A stretch of 64,000 nt of DNA from the NCBI RefSeq assembly GCF_020164495.1, contig NZ_JAIQYZ010000003.1, forward strand, positions 186,001-250,000, given 5' to 3'. Position numbers and translations under genes: made by a program. This DNA comes from Psychroflexus lacisalsi (lineage in GTDB: Bacteria > Bacteroidota > Bacteroidia > Flavobacteriales > Flavobacteriaceae). Position 1 is the stretch's first letter. Every line of letters starts with the position of its first letter. The notes below the pieces were generated by a model. The model saw only the letters and a program-made list of their open reading frames with translations, did no database searches and had not been told where the DNA came from. This document shows positions 19,494 to 28,282 of the stretch, in pieces.

Positions 19494-20237
19494 ATGCTAT
19501 ACGGAATTTGTCCCCTAAGTGTTGTTCCTGTGAGAGCAGAAGCAAGCGACTCTTCAGAAATGGTTACTCAGCTACTTTATGGAGATCATTTTGAAGTGAT
19601 CGAAACACAACCTAAATGGATTAAAATTCGTATAGCTTTTGACGATTATGAAGGCTGGTTGGATAGAAAGCAGGCTTTTGAAATTGATCAAGAAAATTTC
19701 AAAAATCTCAATGAAAGGAATGAATATTCTACAGATTTGTTGAGTTTAATGACTACCGAGAATGGACAGTTAATGCCCGTTTGTATTGGGTCTTCAATTC
19801 ACTCCTCAACACTTCTAAAACATCAGTTTGATGGAGCCATTAATAATAATTACACAAAAAACCATTTAGTTGATACTGCCATGCTTTATCTGAATTCCCC
19901 CTATTTATGGGGTGGGAAATCACCATTCGGGATAGATTGCAGTGGATTTGTACAAATGGTTTACAAAATAAGTGGTATCCAATTACACCGAGATGCTTAT
20001 GAACAAGCCAAGCAAGGTCAGGCGCTTTCGTTTATCGAAGAAAGTGAACCGGGTGACCTTGCTTTTTTTGATAATGAAGAAGGGAAAATAATTCACGTGG
20101 GAATTATGATGAAGGATAATTATATTATTCACGCCCACGGACAAGTCCGAATTGATAGAATAGATCATTCTGGTATTTTCAATGTAGAAAGCGGTCGCTA
20201 TTCACACAACTTGAGGGTGATCAAGAAAATTGTTTAA
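19494..20237 (+). CDS. SH3-like / NlpC-P60 peptidoglycan peptidase
   Basis: A 247-residue cysteine peptidase. An SH3-like wall-binding domain occupies about residues 5-65 (VPVRAEASDSSEMVTQLLYG), and the NlpC/P60 domain about 120-247. The catalytic set is visible: C149 in GIDCSGFVQ, H201 in KIIHVGIM and the third residue H213 in IIHAHGQ. Enzymes of this type cut D-glutamyl-diaminopimelate or related bonds in peptidoglycan stems. No signal peptide is seen, so the protein may recycle muropeptides in the cytosol or be exported another way. Its stop shares TTAA with the convergent metallophosphoesterase gene. Confidence 0.92.
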   Translation: MLYGICPLSVVPVRAEASDSSEMVTQLLYGDHFEVIETQPKWIKIRIAFDDYEGWLDRKQAFEIDQENFKNLNERNEYSTDLLSLMTTENGQLMPVCIGSSIHSSTLLKHQFDGAINNNYTKNHLVDTAMLYLNSPYLWGGKSPFGIDCSGFVQMVYKISGIQLHRDAYEQAKQGQALSFIEESEPGDLAFFDNEEGKIIHVGIMMKDNYIIHAHGQVRIDRIDHSGIFNVESGRYSHNLRVIKKIV

Positions 20238-23200
20238 AACTTTGCTCCAAAACCGAAAGAAAACCAAAATCCATCCTCGCTATGGAAGAAGTTGAAAGTA
20301 CCCGTAAATAAATCGGCGCCATTCACCCAAAAACCTAAACCATAATTGTTTTTCCACTGGTTTGATTCTGGAACGTTTGACCACACTCTACCAACATCAA
20401 AGCCTGTAAATACTCCAAACTGAAGCGGAATAAAATTTGTTTTGATAGAATTGAAACTATGCCGTAAATCAATATTACCCACCAGACTTTCTCTTCCTAT
20501 AAATCGATCTCTTCTAAAACCTCTCAACCCATTTCTGGCTCCTAAAATTGCCCCCTGATAAAATTCATAATCATCATTAAAGATCAATTGAGAAGTAGCT
20601 TTGGTTCTTAATACCCATTTTTGGTCATTTGAAATAGCATTATAAAACTCCAAATGCGGATTCAGAAAAACAAAATGCTGATCTACGTCTGAGGTATTCA
20701 TTGTAGCTCCAAGTTCAACTTTGAAATCCATACCACGTCTTGGATTAAGGTCGTCATCGAAACTGTGATACTGATAAGACGATTGGTAAGAAACAAAGTT
20801 TTTTGAATCAAAAAATGACGGATTATTGCTGAGCAATTCATCACCGACTAAGTCTATAAACCTACCTTCCGTTCTTTCTACATCATAATTTTGAAAAGAA
20901 ACTTTATTTTCAAAAATACTACCATATTTTGAAGCTCTGCGAAGGCCCAATTCAAATTCGAATTTTCTAATTTTTACCCGATTAAAATTTTTGACGATAT
21001 CATTATCAAAATATTCAGAATCATTTCCGAAGCCAAAAAAGTTCCTGGCAAAATTTGGACTTGTATATTCCAAAGAAGTGAAAAGATTGTGCTTGCCTAG
21101 AACGTTGGCAAACTCACCTTCGTACCCAACATCGAAGCCTCCAGTTGCAGTATAAATACCAGCTTTTATATTATGCCTGTAAGTGAAGGGGTTTAATTGA
21201 AAACCATTATATCCGAGCGAGACTTGAGCTCCAAATAATAGTCCATCATCTGGATTAAAACCCAAACGCGGTAAAAACGAACTTATCCAATTGATACTCC
21301 TGTCTTTATCGAAGGTATTGACCACATAATTATCGGTTCTAATCACTCGACCTCCTTTTTTTTCTACTATTGAATTTTCTAAAGTTTTATGATCGTAAAC
21401 CCTGACTTTTTTTCCAGCTTTAAGAGCATAAGAATCATTATCATGACCACCGATGAGTCTAACTTTAATTTTCGCTGGATAATCTCCGGAAACAGTAAAT
21501 GTATCTTCATCATCTAGACCATAAATCCAGATTTCTTTGGTGTATTCTTCATCAAAAACTTTATCGACAATTGTGTTTTTGCGGTCACCTTTTATATCCC
21601 GCATAATTCTCACCCTTGTTTGTCCATTTTGCTGACGATAGACGTCTATGAAATCATCTTTATCTGTAGCCGTTAAAACAGAAACTTCACTTAAAATATC
21701 ATAATACTGATCAGCATAATTAACCAAATGACCCAATCTAGATTTGAAAATTGAAATGAGAGTCTTTGTTTTTTCCTTGTCGATTTCTTCTGGTAATTTA
21801 GAAAAGGCCTTTTGAATCACTTCATCAGTCAAATGCTCTTGAATATATTTAGCCTCTTTTACCCAATCCTCCTTAGCAGCATTTCTGATAATCATTCTGT
21901 CTAAACTCAGACCAGAAGTATTTAACCATTTTAGATTCTCAATGTCTCCAGTGTACGGTTGAAATTTTTTGGGAGCCGAACTTATTGTCCTCAGCACATT
22001 AAAAAATCCACCATCAAAATTGGCGAAGACCTGATCCCTATCTCGAGGAATAGGTTTAAAAATTCTATCTCCGTTTTCAAGTTCAAACTCGGACCAGCGC
22101 CATTGATCTTCATGCCTGTCCCAATCGCCTAAAAGCATATCAAACAATCGAGCCCTTAGATAGTTTGATTCATCGAGCTTATATTTTTCATCTCTTCTCA
22201 AGCGCTCTATCATGTCGGCAGTGCTTACAATATCATGATTGGGATTCCCAAAAACACCAGTACCCATCCAATGCTCTTCTGGACGTTCTTCTATCATATA
22301 TAACTGGTTACCATGTACTTGGTTAAATTTCCCCAACGCCTTTTGTTTGGGAATATATACCAATCGCGGGTTAGTGTGATATACTCCAATAGCATCAGAT
22401 AAATCTGGTACTGCCATGAATCCAAAAGGATGAGCAGCTGTCAAAAAATCAAGTAACGCTTCTTGAACTACAGTATCATCAAATTCATTGTATAGGTTTT
22501 TATCTGGATAGACGAACTGCTGAAGTAGTCTCACTGGATCTTTTTTCAGTTGCCTGATGTTGTATTCCCTGCCGTTTTCATCACTCAGTCTTAGAGAGTT
22601 GGTTTGCATTCCTCCGCCCATTCGCATTGGCTCCAAACCTCCGTATGCAGTATCTATCTTTAAAACAGGAACTGTAATCTGGCGAGTGTACAGGTCTCTG
22701 TAATGCTGGCCCCAGACACTTTCATAAAAACCTGTTCTATCGGTTTTCACGTCTTCATATACTGAAGTGGCAACTGTTTCTGGGAAATTTTCGGGAATAC
22801 TTTCTAGGTCAAAACTCCTTTCACCTTCATAAATTTCTTTTTGAAAAATGAGTTCAGGTTTATTCTTATCTGCAGAATAAAATTGAACCCACGAAGAGTC
22901 ATCTTCAAAAACATCAAACACTGCAAAACCATAGCCCGGATAAGCAAACTCTCCATCAAGCCCTAATTTGGCATAAGATTTTTTTGAACCAGATCCAGAA
23001 ACGATCTGCTTGATTAGATCATGCTCTATATATTGCAAGCTATGTTCGTGTCCTGATGCAAAAACCACTCTATTCCAGCGACTGGCTATTGCTGAAATTC
23101 GTTTGACCATAGATTGGTATTGATTGTTCTGCGTATCCTGAACTGAAACTCCTCCAGAAACCCTTATTAAAGTAGCCAGAGAAGCTAAGCCAGGTAAAGG

Positions 23201-23959
23201 AATTTTTCGTTGGGAAGGAAACAAATGCTTAGAAAATTCATAAGTTCCTCCATGAACTCCATTGGTATAAAGCGGGTGATGTAAGGCAACAAGCGTAGTT
23301 TTATTCTGATTTTTTTTCAATTCCGTTTCAAATTCCTCATAAAATTGATCGAGGGTTTTGATTTCATTGCAATTCCTATTGATCAGAGGATTTTGATCCC
23401 AGTTGGCAATAATCCACTGGGAGTCCAAAATAATAAGATGAACATCATCTGAAATATCCACAGATGATAGTCCGCATCCAGGTGTTGGAAGCCATGCCTC
23501 ATCTTGGTCTTTCAAAACTTTCTTGATTTGTTTTTCTTGATTCTCTAAAGACTGTATGCCTTCAGAATACCAATCGTGATTCCCTGGGATAAAATGAATG
23601 TCACCTTCAAAAAAAGTAAGGTTAGACGTTTGTCTGTCTATAATTTCTTTAGCTTGATTTCGGTTTTTCTCTCCTTTGCTTGGAAGACCTGCTGGGTAAA
23701 TATTATCTCCGAGAATGATGACCTTATCATTTTGTGTATCTAGAGGTCCCGCAAAGGCCTTAAAAGCTAAAATACCAGGTGGTGCCTCCTCTAGTTTTTC
23801 ATAACCTGTATCACCAATTAGATAGAATCGTTGAGAAAGTTTTTTGTCTGCGGGATAAGCTGTTGATTGAAATTTTTCTAAATTTTTATATTTAACTTCG
23901 TATGTTGCACATGCACTAAACATTAACCCAAATACGATGAGTACTAATTTGTTTTTCAT
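20234..23959 (-). CDS. Metallophosphoesterase / kinase-like / outer-membrane beta-barrel fusion
   Basis: A 1241-residue protein with a hydrophobic N-terminus ending at a possible lipobox (FSAC, C17). A calcineurin-like phosphoesterase spans about residues 43-340, with metal motifs IGDTG (49), GDNIYP (84-89), GNHDW (126-130) and GHEHS (about 305). A middle region at about 440-720 looks kinase-like: a glycine-rich GGGMQTNSLRL, a lysine-containing NIRQLKKDP, a catalytic-loop-like GDWDRHEDQW (D614, H616) and a DxD-type PRDRDQVF (D640, D642). The C-terminal about 360 residues form a BamA/D15-type barrel ending in a terminal phenylalanine (FGAKF). The phosphoesterase and barrel are clear; the kinase-like reading is inference. 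It probably acts at the outer membrane. The substrate is unknown. Confidence 0.88.
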   Translation of the reverse strand: MKNKLVLIVFGLMFSACATYEVKYKNLEKFQSTAYPADKKLSQRFYLIGDTGYEKLEEAPPGILAFKAFAGPLDTQNDKVIILGDNIYPAGLPSKGEKNRNQAKEIIDRQTSNLTFFEGDIHFIPGNHDWYSEGIQSLENQEKQIKKVLKDQDEAWLPTPGCGLSSVDISDDVHLIILDSQWIIANWDQNPLINRNCNEIKTLDQFYEEFETELKKNQNKTTLVALHHPLYTNGVHGGTYEFSKHLFPSQRKIPLPGLASLATLIRVSGGVSVQDTQNNQYQSMVKRISAIASRWNRVVFASGHEHSLQYIEHDLIKQIVSGSGSKKSYAKLGLDGEFAYPGYGFAVFDVFEDDSSWVQFYSADKNKPELIFQKEIYEGERSFDLESIPENFPETVATSVYEDVKTDRTGFYESVWGQHYRDLYTRQITVPVLKIDTAYGGLEPMRMGGGMQTNSLRLSDENGREYNIRQLKKDPVRLLQQFVYPDKNLYNEFDDTVVQEALLDFLTAAHPFGFMAVPDLSDAIGVYHTNPRLVYIPKQKALGKFNQVHGNQLYMIEERPEEHWMGTGVFGNPNHDIVSTADMIERLRRDEKYKLDESNYLRARLFDMLLGDWDRHEDQWRWSEFELENGDRIFKPIPRDRDQVFANFDGGFFNVLRTISSAPKKFQPYTGDIENLKWLNTSGLSLDRMIIRNAAKEDWVKEAKYIQEHLTDEVIQKAFSKLPEEIDKEKTKTLISIFKSRLGHLVNYADQYYDILSEVSVLTATDKDDFIDVYRQQNGQTRVRIMRDIKGDRKNTIVDKVFDEEYTKEIWIYGLDDEDTFTVSGDYPAKIKVRLIGGHDNDSYALKAGKKVRVYDHKTLENSIVEKKGGRVIRTDNYVVNTFDKDRSINWISSFLPRLGFNPDDGLLFGAQVSLGYNGFQLNPFTYRHNIKAGIYTATGGFDVGYEGEFANVLGKHNLFTSLEYTSPNFARNFFGFGNDSEYFDNDIVKNFNRVKIRKFEFELGLRRASKYGSIFENKVSFQNYDVERTEGRFIDLVGDELLSNNPSFFDSKNFVSYQSSYQYHSFDDDLNPRRGMDFKVELGATMNTSDVDQHFVFLNPHLEFYNAISNDQKWVLRTKATSQLIFNDDYEFYQGAILGARNGLRGFRRDRFIGRESLVGNIDLRHSFNSIKTNFIPLQFGVFTGFDVGRVWSNVPESNQWKNNYGLGFWVNGADLFTGTFNFFHSEDGFWFSFGFGAKF

Positions 23960-23998
23960 TTAAAATAATTTAATTGGTAGTCGATAAAATTCCAGAAA

Positions 23999-25180
23999 AT
24001 GACAGATCTCATTTCAAAAACTGAATCTTTTATACTTCAATTATTCAAAGATAAGTTATCTAATATATATGTGTATCACAATTTCAATCACACTAAAAGA
24101 GTTGTTGAAAGTGCTGAATATTTAGCTGAACAAAAAAATCTAAATGAAGAGGACAAACTCATACTTCTTCTTTCGGCTTGGTTACATGATACGGGTTATA
24201 CAATTTCTGAAAATCAACATGAAGAAGAAAGTAAACGTATAGCTGTGGATTTTCTGGAAGCTAATAATGTAGCTCAGGATATTATTAAATCTGTACAAAA
24301 AACAATTGGTGCAACCAAAATTGGTGCCCAGCCATCTTCTGAAATTGAAAAAATAATTAAAGATGCGGATTGCTCCCATTTTGCTAAAGGATATTTCAAA
24401 GAAGTGAGCGAACTTTTAAGGCAAGAATTGCGTTTACGCGGACAAGACTACAATGCCGATGAGTGGACGAATTTAAATATTGAAATGCTATCCTTTAAAC
24501 ATCAATATTATACAGATTATGCGGTGAAAAACTGGAGTGCTGCCAAACAAGAAAACCTCATCAATCTTATTGAAGAAAAAGAAAAAACTAAAAGAAAGAA
24601 AGAGAAGGACAAACTAAAAGCTAAGTATAAGGCTCAATATAAAAATGACAATCCTGAGAGAAGTATTCAAACGCTTTTCAGAACAACCTTAAGGAATCAC
24701 CTTAAACTAAGTGATATTGCAGATACAAAGGCAAACATTTTACTGTCTGTGAATGCTATCATTATATCTTTAGCATTGGCGAACATTATACCGAAGTTGG
24801 ACAATCCAAGCAATCAGCATTTGATGATCCCTACTTTGATTTTGATTTGTTTTAGTGTCGCCGCCATCATACTTTCCATTTTATCAACTAGACCAAATGT
24901 CACATCGGGGGAATTCACCAAAGAACAAGTTGAAAAAAGAGATGTCAACATCTTATTTTTTGGAAACTTTCATAAAATGACTTTCGAAAATTACTTATGG
25001 GGCGTAAAAGAAATTCTTAAAGACAAAGATTATGTTTACGAAGCTTTAGTAAAAGACCTTTATCTACTTGGTAAAGTTTTAGAAAGAAAATACAGATTAC
25101 TCAGAATTACTTACACTATATTTATGGCTGGTATTATCATATCTGTAGTCAGTTTTTTTATCGCTTTTTATATGATGTAA
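23999..25180 (+). CDS. HD domain protein fused to a Pycsar-effector (PycTM, DUF5706) membrane module
   Basis: A 393-residue protein. An HD domain occupies about residues 1-185: H31 in NFNHTKRVV, H63-D64 in WLHDTGYT and D122 in KDADCSH. A lysine-rich helical linker follows (about 192-217). The C-terminal part (about 225-393) begins LRNHLKLSDIADTKANILLS and has membrane helices at about 243-260, 272-293 and 372-392, matching the Pycsar effector family. In Pycsar phage defence such membrane effectors respond to cyclic CMP or UMP made by a partner cyclase. No cyclase gene is near, so a housekeeping role is equally possible. The HD domain could hydrolyse a nucleotide; this is inference. Confidence 0.85.
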   Translation: MTDLISKTESFILQLFKDKLSNIYVYHNFNHTKRVVESAEYLAEQKNLNEEDKLILLLSAWLHDTGYTISENQHEEESKRIAVDFLEANNVAQDIIKSVQKTIGATKIGAQPSSEIEKIIKDADCSHFAKGYFKEVSELLRQELRLRGQDYNADEWTNLNIEMLSFKHQYYTDYAVKNWSAAKQENLINLIEEKEKTKRKKEKDKLKAKYKAQYKNDNPERSIQTLFRTTLRNHLKLSDIADTKANILLSVNAIIISLALANIIPKLDNPSNQHLMIPTLILICFSVAAIILSILSTRPNVTSGEFTKEQVEKRDVNILFFGNFHKMTFENYLWGVKEILKDKDYVYEALVKDLYLLGKVLERKYRLLRITYTIFMAGIIISVVSFFIAFYMM

Positions 25181-25256: not shown

Positions 25257-25916
25257 ATGTATAAATTTACTATTGCTTTTATTACACTTTTATTAAGTAG
25301 CTCTGGATATTCTCAAGCTACTATTTCTGTAGGTATAAAAGCAGGAGTAAACTTCGCTTCTGCCACTGGAGATGCTTCAGATTCTAATTCGCAAATAGGA
25401 TATGACGAAGGCAGAACTGGTTTTCATGTTGGAGTTATTTCAGAATTATCAATTTCAAATAAATTTTCATTGCAAACAGAGTTATTGTACTCTCAAGTTG
25501 GAGCAAATTACTCTTATGATAACAGGCCAGCCGACGGAGCGAAAGTAGATTCTGATTTAAATTTAGATTACATCACCCTACCTATCCTTGCCAAATACTA
25601 CGTTTATAAGGGCTTAAGTCTTCTAGCTGGACCACAGCTTGGCTATATTGTAAATTCAGAGATTGAAAATGAGATATTAACTTCAGGGTTTCTAGTACCA
25701 GAAACTTTAAGAAATGAAACCATAGACATAAAAGATGACATTAATAATTTTGACTTTGGATTTGCTATAGGTTCTAGTTATGAATTGAATAATGGCTTAT
25801 TTATTCAAGCCAGATATGTCTTGGGATTATCTGAAATCCCTAAAAACGAAGAACAAACGATATCCACCGACCTAAAAAATGAAGTATTTCAAGTCTCACT
25901 CGGCTATAAGTTTTAA
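25257..25916 (+). CDS. Outer-membrane beta-barrel protein, PorT-like family
   Basis: A 219-residue protein with a signal peptide (ITLLLSSSGYSQ) and the short-barrel pattern of the PorT/OmpA-like family: VGIKAGVNFASATG at the start of the mature protein, FSLQTELLYSQVGANY, YITLPILAKYYVYKGLSLLAGPQLGY, and a terminal VSLGYKF ending in phenylalanine. This family is abundant in Bacteroidota, and most members have no assigned function. It lies 76 bases downstream of the HD-PycTM gene on the same strand. It ends on a TTAA shared with the convergent GAF gene. Confidence 0.88.
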   Translation: MYKFTIAFITLLLSSSGYSQATISVGIKAGVNFASATGDASDSNSQIGYDEGRTGFHVGVISELSISNKFSLQTELLYSQVGANYSYDNRPADGAKVDSDLNLDYITLPILAKYYVYKGLSLLAGPQLGYIVNSEIENEILTSGFLVPETLRNETIDIKDDINNFDFGFAIGSSYELNNGLFIQARYVLGLSEIPKNEEQTISTDLKNEVFQVSLGYKF

Positions 25917-28282
25917 TTCAAAGATTTTATTAAGCTTTCATAAGTGACTCTTTTTTCGGAGGAATCCCCTTTATGATACAAAATCCCCACGCGTATAGCT
26001 TTCAATCCAGAAACACCTTGCAAATCTTCAACATCAAGAATCTCCACCTCTTCATTGAGGTATTGTTTTCTTTGTAAATAGTTGATATATTTCAAATATT
26101 CGTATTGAGTTTCTTTTTGAGAATAGATAATTGTTAATTTACCTTTACTCGTTACTCGTTCTTCTGAGTTTTTCACAAAAGACTTGTCAATCCTTTTTTT
26201 GATGATTTCGTATCTCGCATTGTAGGAACCATCTACATCAAAATGTTTTTCATCCATTCTATAATGAATGGTTAGCGTATTATTAAAAGCTAAAATTAGT
26301 GACCTTGAACTCAATTTGAAATTTTTGGTCTCCTGAATTTCATAAAAGCGATTTTCCATTTCACACATAACTGTAATTTGCCACAATCTTAGATTTTGCA
26401 AAACAACTTCATTGAAGTTACGATCCTTCACTATGGATTGACCTATGTACATGTTATGCTCCACTCCATCTGTTTTGTAACGATCAAAATAATGCGGAAA
26501 TAATTTCTGCGCTTCAACTTGTTTTAAATCTATAAAACCAGCCATGCAGGAATTTATTCTTGAAATTGTTTCATCAAATTCATCTCTGTTTTTATGAAAT
26601 GTCTTGTTCCCTGGCTTGATTTTATCAAGATAATTATCGACGAGATATTCACAATTCGGTACATTGGTTTGAATATGTTTTAGAACAGGGAGTACATCAT
26701 TTCTTAATAACTGTTCAACCTTTTCTTCAGTTGAAGCTGAAATCCCACTTGATAAATGAGAAAGGGAATCTGTAATTCTATAACCCAACTGTTCATAAAC
26801 TGGGAGAGGTTGTGCTTCGAAAGCAGAATTTATGATATCCAAAACTTTATTGAGCTGATGTATCAAGTCGTTCTGAATAGCAGAGTTCCTTTGGGTAGAT
26901 GAATCGGCGATATCTATTTGTCCAAAAAGAGGATAAACATCATGAAAATAAATTTCTTTCAATTCACTTTCTTCTGAAGTTTCATAAAATAATTTCTCGG
27001 CCTCTTCTTCAAATTTCCATTCTACACTTGGATGTATAGAGGTGTATTCACTTTGGATTATTGCTTTTATTCTGTTTTGCTTTTCTTGTTCGTAATTTTC
27101 AACAGTTTCTGCTATGTAAGGCACAATATCGTCAAGCTTCGTTGCATTGATATTATTTAGGTCATTTTTAGAAAAACTAACCAATTCAAGAATGGCTAAA
27201 AGTTTATTATTTTTACTTACCGGGGCTAGAATAACAGACTGAATTCCTTTAGATTTTAAATGATCGGCAAATTTATTACCCGGATTTTTTTCAGAATAAG
27301 AATTGACATCTGTTATACTGAAGTATTTATGTTGATCTACAATCGCTTTATATGCCCCGTGACAAAAAGCCTCCCGGCAACCGTTGTCCGAAATTGAGTC
27401 CAAAATAAAACTATCTATAAAATTAGAATGGCTAAGCTGAAATGTCTCTTTTTCATCATTGAAAAGGGCAAAGCCAAATTCGAGTTTTGGCAATCTAAAG
27501 ATGGATTTTAAAATACTTGCCATTTTCAAAGTGACAGCTTTAGAATCGGATAAAATATTATTGTTGAGTAGAAGCGTTTTAATTTCCGAAATACTATTAT
27601 CGGCAGTGACATCAGTGAGATTTAAAATCGCAAACCCTTTAAAAATCCAGGAGTTGGGTGGAAACTTTTCTTTCCAGAAATCAATATCATTATGTCTGTT
27701 TAGTAATTCATCAACATCTTTAGGCGTGATTTCAACTGCATTTTCTGTAGGAATTAATTCTACGAAATCCGCATTTACAAAAAGTCTGTAATTTTTCAGG
27801 TTACCATCAGCATCTGGAACATCGTAATATTCTGGTCTGAAGAAGTCAATATTGTAACTATAGTAGGTGTTTAGAATAATAATACAGGCCAGAATATAAT
27901 CTTTTTCAATATTGAAGTTTCTCGGCAAAAACTCAAATCCTTCATAAGGAACCGCATTCAGTATAGACTCAAAACGTTTTGTTTTTCTGAACATTTTATT
28001 GCGAAAAGGAACAGTTGCCACTTTAATCTCATTATGAGTCAATACATCAGGAAACAAATCATCTAGCAATATTTTGATTTGTTTCTCATAAGGCTTTAGG
28101 TTCTCATAGTCTTCAATCCCGTCAAAAAGCTCAGGGTAAGACTCCGAGTAATCCAATATGCCTTGAATATATTTTTTTGAAATTGGATTGCTTTCTGTTT
28201 CTAATCGCTTTTGAAAATTGTCGCGAATTTTCTGAAAGCTCAGCTTTATCTTAAATGGGTAAATATCTTTATAACGATCCAT
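25913..28282 (-). CDS. Large GAF-domain protein of unknown output
   Basis: A 789-residue cytosolic protein with no signal peptide or membrane helix. A GAF-like domain is visible at about residues 250-395 (LEFGFALFNDEKETFQL, IQSVILAPVSKNNKLLAILELVSF), followed by a helical stretch with YTSIHPSVEWKFEEEAEKLF. The N-terminal 240 residues and C-terminal 350 residues have no motif I recognise. No histidine kinase, GGDEF, HD or phosphatase module is present, so the effector side is unclear. GAF domains bind small molecules such as cyclic nucleotides. It is convergent with the PorT-like gene and shares its stop tetranucleotide. Confidence 0.75.
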   Translation of the reverse strand: MDRYKDIYPFKIKLSFQKIRDNFQKRLETESNPISKKYIQGILDYSESYPELFDGIEDYENLKPYEKQIKILLDDLFPDVLTHNEIKVATVPFRNKMFRKTKRFESILNAVPYEGFEFLPRNFNIEKDYILACIIILNTYYSYNIDFFRPEYYDVPDADGNLKNYRLFVNADFVELIPTENAVEITPKDVDELLNRHNDIDFWKEKFPPNSWIFKGFAILNLTDVTADNSISEIKTLLLNNNILSDSKAVTLKMASILKSIFRLPKLEFGFALFNDEKETFQLSHSNFIDSFILDSISDNGCREAFCHGAYKAIVDQHKYFSITDVNSYSEKNPGNKFADHLKSKGIQSVILAPVSKNNKLLAILELVSFSKNDLNNINATKLDDIVPYIAETVENYEQEKQNRIKAIIQSEYTSIHPSVEWKFEEEAEKLFYETSEESELKEIYFHDVYPLFGQIDIADSSTQRNSAIQNDLIHQLNKVLDIINSAFEAQPLPVYEQLGYRITDSLSHLSSGISASTEEKVEQLLRNDVLPVLKHIQTNVPNCEYLVDNYLDKIKPGNKTFHKNRDEFDETISRINSCMAGFIDLKQVEAQKLFPHYFDRYKTDGVEHNMYIGQSIVKDRNFNEVVLQNLRLWQITVMCEMENRFYEIQETKNFKLSSRSLILAFNNTLTIHYRMDEKHFDVDGSYNARYEIIKKRIDKSFVKNSEERVTSKGKLTIIYSQKETQYEYLKYINYLQRKQYLNEEVEILDVEDLQGVSGLKAIRVGILYHKGDSSEKRVTYESLIKSLN

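Follow-up and report, generated by a model that had tools for sequence, protein, structure and literature searches.

A predicted kinase-fold domain between a phosphatase and a BamA-type barrel in a putatively exported protein of Psychroflexus lacisalsi

HipA and CtkA are cytoplasmic or secreted-effector kinases, and Fam20C is a kinase of the eukaryotic secretory pathway, whose compartment imports adenosine triphosphate (ATP). Omp85 barrels with an even number of strands have both ends in the periplasm, and PlpD joins a patatin to an Omp85 barrel. Here we describe a protein of 1241 amino acids (aa) from Psychroflexus lacisalsi, encoded on the minus strand at positions 20234-23959 of the window analysed (64,000 nucleotides; contig NZ_JAIQYZ010000003.1, positions 186,001 to 250,000). 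This single chain is predicted to unite a phosphatase, a kinase-fold domain that had escaped recognition and a barrel of the BamA type in an outer-membrane protein. Our overall reading, to which we assign a probability of about 0.58, is that of an exported, outer-membrane-anchored phosphotransfer protein in which a phosphatase and an atypical kinase stand in tandem before a barrel devoid of POTRA domains. The fold class is known; neither the kinase family nor the phosphatase-kinase-Omp85 architecture turned up in Pfam, NCBIfam or the literature as searched by title and the start of the abstract, a scope within which an earlier kinase-like naming could have been missed, and no word beginning with phosphatase or kinase occurs in PMC12611786 or PMC4104836.

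The open reading frame (ORF) fills the interval 20234..23959, and all coordinates of its features given below refer to the minus strand. The plus-strand frame across the same interval is riddled with stops. The ORF is the only match in its own genome (3.04 Mb); among the best 80 of 584 related stretches, its nearest relatives belong to Psychroflexus, Flavobacteriaceae, and its row stands beside P. tropicus in the tree. A full-length predicted model of residues 42-1241 reached a predicted local distance difference test (pLDDT) value of 89.3 and a predicted template modelling (pTM) score of 0.86. The predicted order along the chain is export signal, phosphatase, kinase fold, beta region and Omp85 barrel. 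Residues 1-16 (23912..23959) read as a putative lipoprotein-type export signal ending in ...FSAC; the N-termini of close homologues resemble it, and a lipobox-like pattern is found in 45 of 111 homologues with the same architecture. The first-pass annotation had placed calcineurin metal motifs in residues 43-340 and a BamA/D15 barrel in the last 360 residues, and both assignments hold. Pfam, applied to the whole protein, named the phosphatase as its sole family (Metallophos PF00149 on residues 44-242, 41.9 bits, cut-off 21.5), whose ligand set is complete in the target, while the last 361 residues alone matched Omp85 PF01103 (40.2 bits, cut-off 24), with 16 strands in the model and fold matches to BamA and TamA.

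The same annotation had read the middle of the protein as kinase-like from the order of its motifs. Structure prediction and fold searches gave a confident two-lobe kinase fold of the PKL superfamily rather than an unrelated one, and motif conservation agrees, so that the reading is supported at the level of fold. Residues 413-757 (21689..22723), which match no Pfam family and stand alone in some homologues, almost certainly adopt a kinase fold, judging from the predicted model. The part matched in fold searches ran from about 28 to 357 of a shorter model, corresponding to residues 427-756, and the 50 solved structures among the matches listed are kinase-fold proteins. The predicted domain shares its fold with CotH (PF08757; 5jd9/5jda) and with HipA; HipA and CtkA gave the best Foldseek matches. 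Type II PI4-kinases and PI3K-related kinases gave structural Z values that were the highest or equal to the highest (PI4KIIbeta, 15.3), at an identity of 8-10% between the type II PI4-kinases and the target domain; unlike for the PI4-kinases, we know of no phosphoinositide partner for the target.

At the level of sequence, kinase matches were absent at significance when the target domain was searched against Pfam, NCBIfam and PDB sequences. CotH PF08757 did not match the target and matched two of 53 diverse members weakly (best E 0.012), Fam20C PF06702 did not match the target and matched one of the 53 weakly (E 0.14), and HipA_C PF07804 matched neither the target (E <= 10) nor its domain (E <= 1); for HipA_C in other members the scope is the 25 commonest Pfam families listed. 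PI3/PI4 kinases PF00454 had no match in the target and appeared in 0 of 148 Bacteroidota genomes searched. Apart from these CotH and Fam20C rows, Pfam searches with homologue alignments returned scattered weak unrelated matches only (EnY2, RNA_binding and others). Three homologues consisting of the kinase domain alone matched a kinase family in neither Pfam nor NCBIfam, and a 77-row profile of residues 400-880 found chance matches only in the PDB (best eS7, E 0.094). Profile-to-profile comparison was made with CotH (30 proteins), HipA (30 proteins) and, as background, 47 unrelated families drawn from the same loci. The kinase region scored 33.6 against the CotH profile and 28.3 against that of HipA, and the highest background score was 24.0; for scale, CotH against HipA scored 48.6. 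The catalytic loops coincide in both alignments, PIPRDRDQ aligns with PwDyD of CotH, and the best match of a PDB-wide profile search was CtkA (E 0.14), at the catalytic loop. These CotH, HipA and CtkA scores are weak alone, and their register agrees with the fold. Taken together, the models suggest a new kinase family whose fold comes closest to those of CotH, type II PI4-kinases, CtkA/HipA and Fam20C. In contrast to CotH, the target carries a GDWDRHxDQW motif, is fused to a phosphatase and a barrel, and is predicted to be exported. CotH-family proteins (L151-L180) are themselves frequent in Bacteroidota, with matches in 24 of 61 genomes and at most seven per genome; none was found in the genome of the window.

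Homologues of the kinase domain fall into three architectures: phosphatase-kinase-barrel (class A, 114 rows, about 1240 aa), kinase-barrel (class B, 22 rows, about 870 aa) and kinase alone (class C, 10 rows, 423-570 aa). Together with two fragments they form an alignment of 148 rows, from which five partial matches shorter than 330 residues were dropped and three loci (L055, L091, L106) were left out of the count as their frames run off the contig; redundancy is slight (L001 represents the window itself, and the pairs L025/L117 and L028/L137 each count one gene twice). In this alignment the motifs of the putative active site are near-invariant rather than freely varying. A glycine-rich loop (residues 440-453, GGLEPMRMGGGMQT; 22601..22642) lies between strands 443-448 and 453-459, and its G448 and G449 are present in 114/114 class A and 10/10 class C rows. 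The candidate nucleotide-binding lysine, K473 (22541..22543), closes the third strand (predicted 465-473); the KKDP motif begins at 472, so K473 is the conserved lysine. Residues 552-558 (QLYMIEE; 22286..22306) form a strand that would serve as the hinge, with E557. The candidate catalytic loop, GDWDRHEDQW (residues 611-620; 22100..22129), contains D614 and H616 and is in register with HipA, CotH and CtkA, and PRDRDQVF (residues 638-645; 22025..22048), with the candidate metal-binding residues D640 and D642, is in register with CotH; the numbering of these residues in the earlier annotation was correct. K473 is kept in 145 of the 148 rows, D612 in 146, D614 in 140, H616 in 138, D640 in 142 and D642 in 141, and identity reaches 98-100% at K473, R604, D607, D612, W620, G650, P723 and R741. 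Moreover, K473, D612, H616, D640 and D642 are unaltered in all 114 class A rows, down to about 30% identity. By predicted secondary structure and conservation, the glycine loop, strand-3 lysine, catalytic-loop aspartate and metal-binding aspartate occupy the places expected of them.

The kinase module has been reused with a barrel only or alone. Hydrophobic N-terminal segments, scored by a simple hydropathy cut, occur in 108/111 class A, 21/23 class B (one a fragment) and 10/10 class C proteins, compared with 230/615 background ORFs, and six of the ten class C proteins carry a lipobox-like site. Because such segments prevail in all three classes, export is predicted for the module whatever its architecture. 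In a profile search, 144 of 395 Bacteroidota genomes, spread over 73 of 170 genera, had a match to the domain; thus roughly one third of the sampled genomes contain a module that is unnamed as a kinase in the family libraries searched. A protein search of a plasmid collection found it in five records, where it is either called hypothetical or left without annotation. At two loci, standalone kinase-fold genes are adjacent, in a cluster of three (L111, 2126-7151) and of two (L112, 2433-5778), and the respective genomes hold five and four copies of the domain. Two 693-aa proteins (L126, 2308-4389; L127, 2753-4834) show a weak partial match to the domain (E about 1e-6) before a barrel, and these stretches are possibly remnants.

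The phosphatase domain (residues 43-350; 22910..23833) resembles purple acid phosphatases in its metal motifs and profile match. Its profile matched human tartrate-resistant purple acid phosphatase (TRAP; 2bq8) with E 1.8e-8, and GAP50 (3tgh) was seventh in the fold search of the full-length model; a single-sequence PDB search returned weak matches only (best E 0.47), a purple acid phosphatase among them. Unlike purple acid phosphatases, it is fused to a kinase-fold domain and a barrel, and one clade of homologues has lost several metal ligands. All nine ligand positions (D50, D85, N86, N127, H128, H227, H228, H304 and H306) are intact in the target, as they are in 92 of the 112 class A rows compared; D50N together with D85N is found in 13 rows and other differences in seven. 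The 13 rows form one side of a single branch in the kinase tree, consistent with one change (support 100/99), and none of 500 shuffles needed as few changes; some other rows of this tree were flagged as long branches. All 13 retain the eleven kinase positions checked. Inside this clade, conservation is 57% for the phosphatase, 70% for the kinase, 73% for the beta region and 66% for the barrel, compared with 56%, 57%, 54% and 49%, respectively, among 58 rows with an intact phosphatase. Since the clade keeps its kinase positions and its phosphatase is less conserved, we infer that the kinase domain matters in these lineages without a working phosphatase. A link between the E557V substitution and this clade was considered and rejected: E557V was seen in 10 rows whose phosphatase ligands are all intact, and in L060 and L109.

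Between kinase and barrel lies a nearly all-beta region (residues 759-885; 21305..21685) that lacks POTRA-like helices in both models. In the full-length model, residues 759-877 contain no helix of four or more residues and one 3-residue turn, and the shorter model likewise has no such helix up to residue 880; residues 759-880 had no fold search of their own. The barrel (residues 890-1239; 20243..21292) is of the Omp85 type, with 16 long strands, and BamA and TamA structures were the top fold matches of the full-length model; in contrast to these proteins, the kinase and phosphatase domains stand where POTRA domains would be. Its LRGF motif (residues 1145-1148; 20516..20527), which we take to be the Omp85 loop-6 [V/L]RG[F/Y] motif, is a conserved column in a 75-row set (L in 75, R in 75, G in 74, Y in 49 and F in 26). 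NCBIfam Omp85_fam scored 63.9 bits on the whole protein, under its cut-off of 200, and the barrel profile found nothing in PDB sequences at E <= 1. At E <= 0.01, 35 of 41 barrel rows matched ShlB/FhaC PF03865 (best 1.2e-9) and 10 matched Omp85 PF01103.

Given the barrel and the export signal, the protein is probably located in the outer membrane. Since even-stranded Omp85 barrels have both ends in the periplasm, the phosphatase and kinase domains quite probably face that compartment. There, the kinase domain, whose activity as a transferase we consider somewhat better than an even prospect, would attach a phosphoryl (or nucleotidyl) group to a component of the envelope, such as an outer-membrane protein, a glycan or a lipid; the phosphatase would reverse or process this modification, and the barrel would act as an anchor and possibly as an export route. 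That the two domains share one substrate is a tentative suggestion with the odds against it. Doubtful, too, is the broader proposal of a widespread exported kinase family that reversibly phosphorylates proteins, glycans or lipids of the Bacteroidota envelope at the outer membrane, opposed by a phosphatase in the same chain and supplied by an extracytoplasmic donor. If active, the protein would constitute an outer-membrane phosphorylation system with both enzymes in one Omp85-type protein, and the architecture points to the possibility that, in bacteria, phosphate groups are both attached and removed outside the cytoplasm. Whether reversible phosphorylation takes place beyond the inner membrane, and from which donor, thus becomes a testable question, for which the standalone class C proteins are small and tractable versions for biochemistry.

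Several observations weigh against the phosphotransfer reading. The strongest objection is that, to our knowledge, the periplasm contains little or no ATP, which makes a different donor, or a role confined to binding, conceivable. Foldseek template modelling (TM) scores are low (0.16-0.33 on model length) and VIA root-mean-square deviations mostly 4-5 Å, so kinship with known kinases is at the level of fold only; hhalign probabilities are likewise low (18% for CotH, 5% for HipA), and the HipA alignment registers the catalytic loop only, with D640/D642 off the corresponding aspartate of HipA. E557 is kept in 133 of 148 rows, with valine in 13, and D614 is substituted in 2/114 class A, 4/22 class B and 2/10 class C rows. 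The glycine loop and/or D640/D642 are lost in eight class B rows (L121-L125, L130, L132 and L133), and no gene that would name a substrate was found among the neighbours across loci. Because of this degeneration, these eight kinase-barrel proteins are likely pseudokinases. The kinase-fold domain might instead be a pseudokinase throughout, which would bind a ligand (a nucleotide, an inositol phosphate or a glycan) and act as a sensor or scaffold beside the phosphatase and barrel without catalysing any transfer. The expected lack of periplasmic ATP and the D614G change in L134/L135 would fit, and the fold seems useful without its catalytic set, since 8/22 kinase-barrel rows lost motifs yet retain the domain; however, the five residues intact throughout class A are hard to explain without catalysis, and the kinase set persists where phosphatase ligands are lost, and we regard this explanation as unlikely for the target.

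An active transferase other than an ATP-dependent kinase, adding adenosine monophosphate (AMP), glutamate or another group, or drawing on polyphosphate, a phosphoenolpyruvate-like or a lipid-linked phosphate donor, appears improbable as well. The periplasmic setting speaks for a donor other than ATP, and lipid kinases (PI4K-II) are among the closest folds. Kinase-fold families that AMPylate or glutamylate provide a precedent, as described in the KINtaro abstract (PMC10870513). The residues of the target nevertheless follow a plain phosphotransferase order; signatures of AMPylation or glutamylation were not sought in detail. The barrel might instead be a translocon exporting a substrate that the soluble domains modify on the way out, as the patatin-barrel union of PlpD, the 16 strands with conserved LRG[F/Y], the prevalence of matches to the secretion-pore family ShlB/FhaC and the common kinase-barrel fusion without phosphatase would allow, but the models contain no POTRA domain for substrate capture and class C kinases dispense with the barrel, which makes this quite improbable. 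Finally, that the motifs are a chance pattern in an unrelated domain, as the lack of a significant kinase match in sequence libraries might imply, has a negligible probability in view of the confident model, the kinase-fold character of the solved matches listed, and a catalytic loop in register in CotH and HipA profile matches that outscore 47/47 background families; from the sequence evidence, we conclude that the motif set is not due to chance. Phosphotransfer by an exported, outer-membrane-anchored protein remains our preferred reading.

Promoter scans of 19900-24200 gave 15 predictions, with a mean of 15.0 for shuffled sequence, and terminator scans gave 2, with 2.8 after shuffling; neither shows an excess. 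The divergent neighbour (23999-25177, plus strand) encodes a Pycsar-effector transmembrane domain (PF18967, 127 bits) together with an HD domain (PF01966). A relative of it is found no more than three genes away from the target in 40 loci (36 class A, 4 class B), a recurrence that can be simple Flavobacteriaceae synteny. Further on, a 789-aa protein that lacks a Pfam family (25916-28282, minus strand; best Amidase, E 0.047) has a relative near the target in 30 loci. At other loci, two possible beta-propeller neighbours adjoin class A and B genes: one at L136 (1246-2130; SdiA-regulated, 41.5 bits, cut-off 21), whose cluster occurs in six loci, and one at L045 (8508-9455; weakly Phytase-like, 19.1 bits, under cut-off), whose cluster occurs in 25. 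Four bases, 20234-20237, are shared by the 3' ends of the target gene and of a convergent NlpC/P60-SH3 gene (19494-20237).
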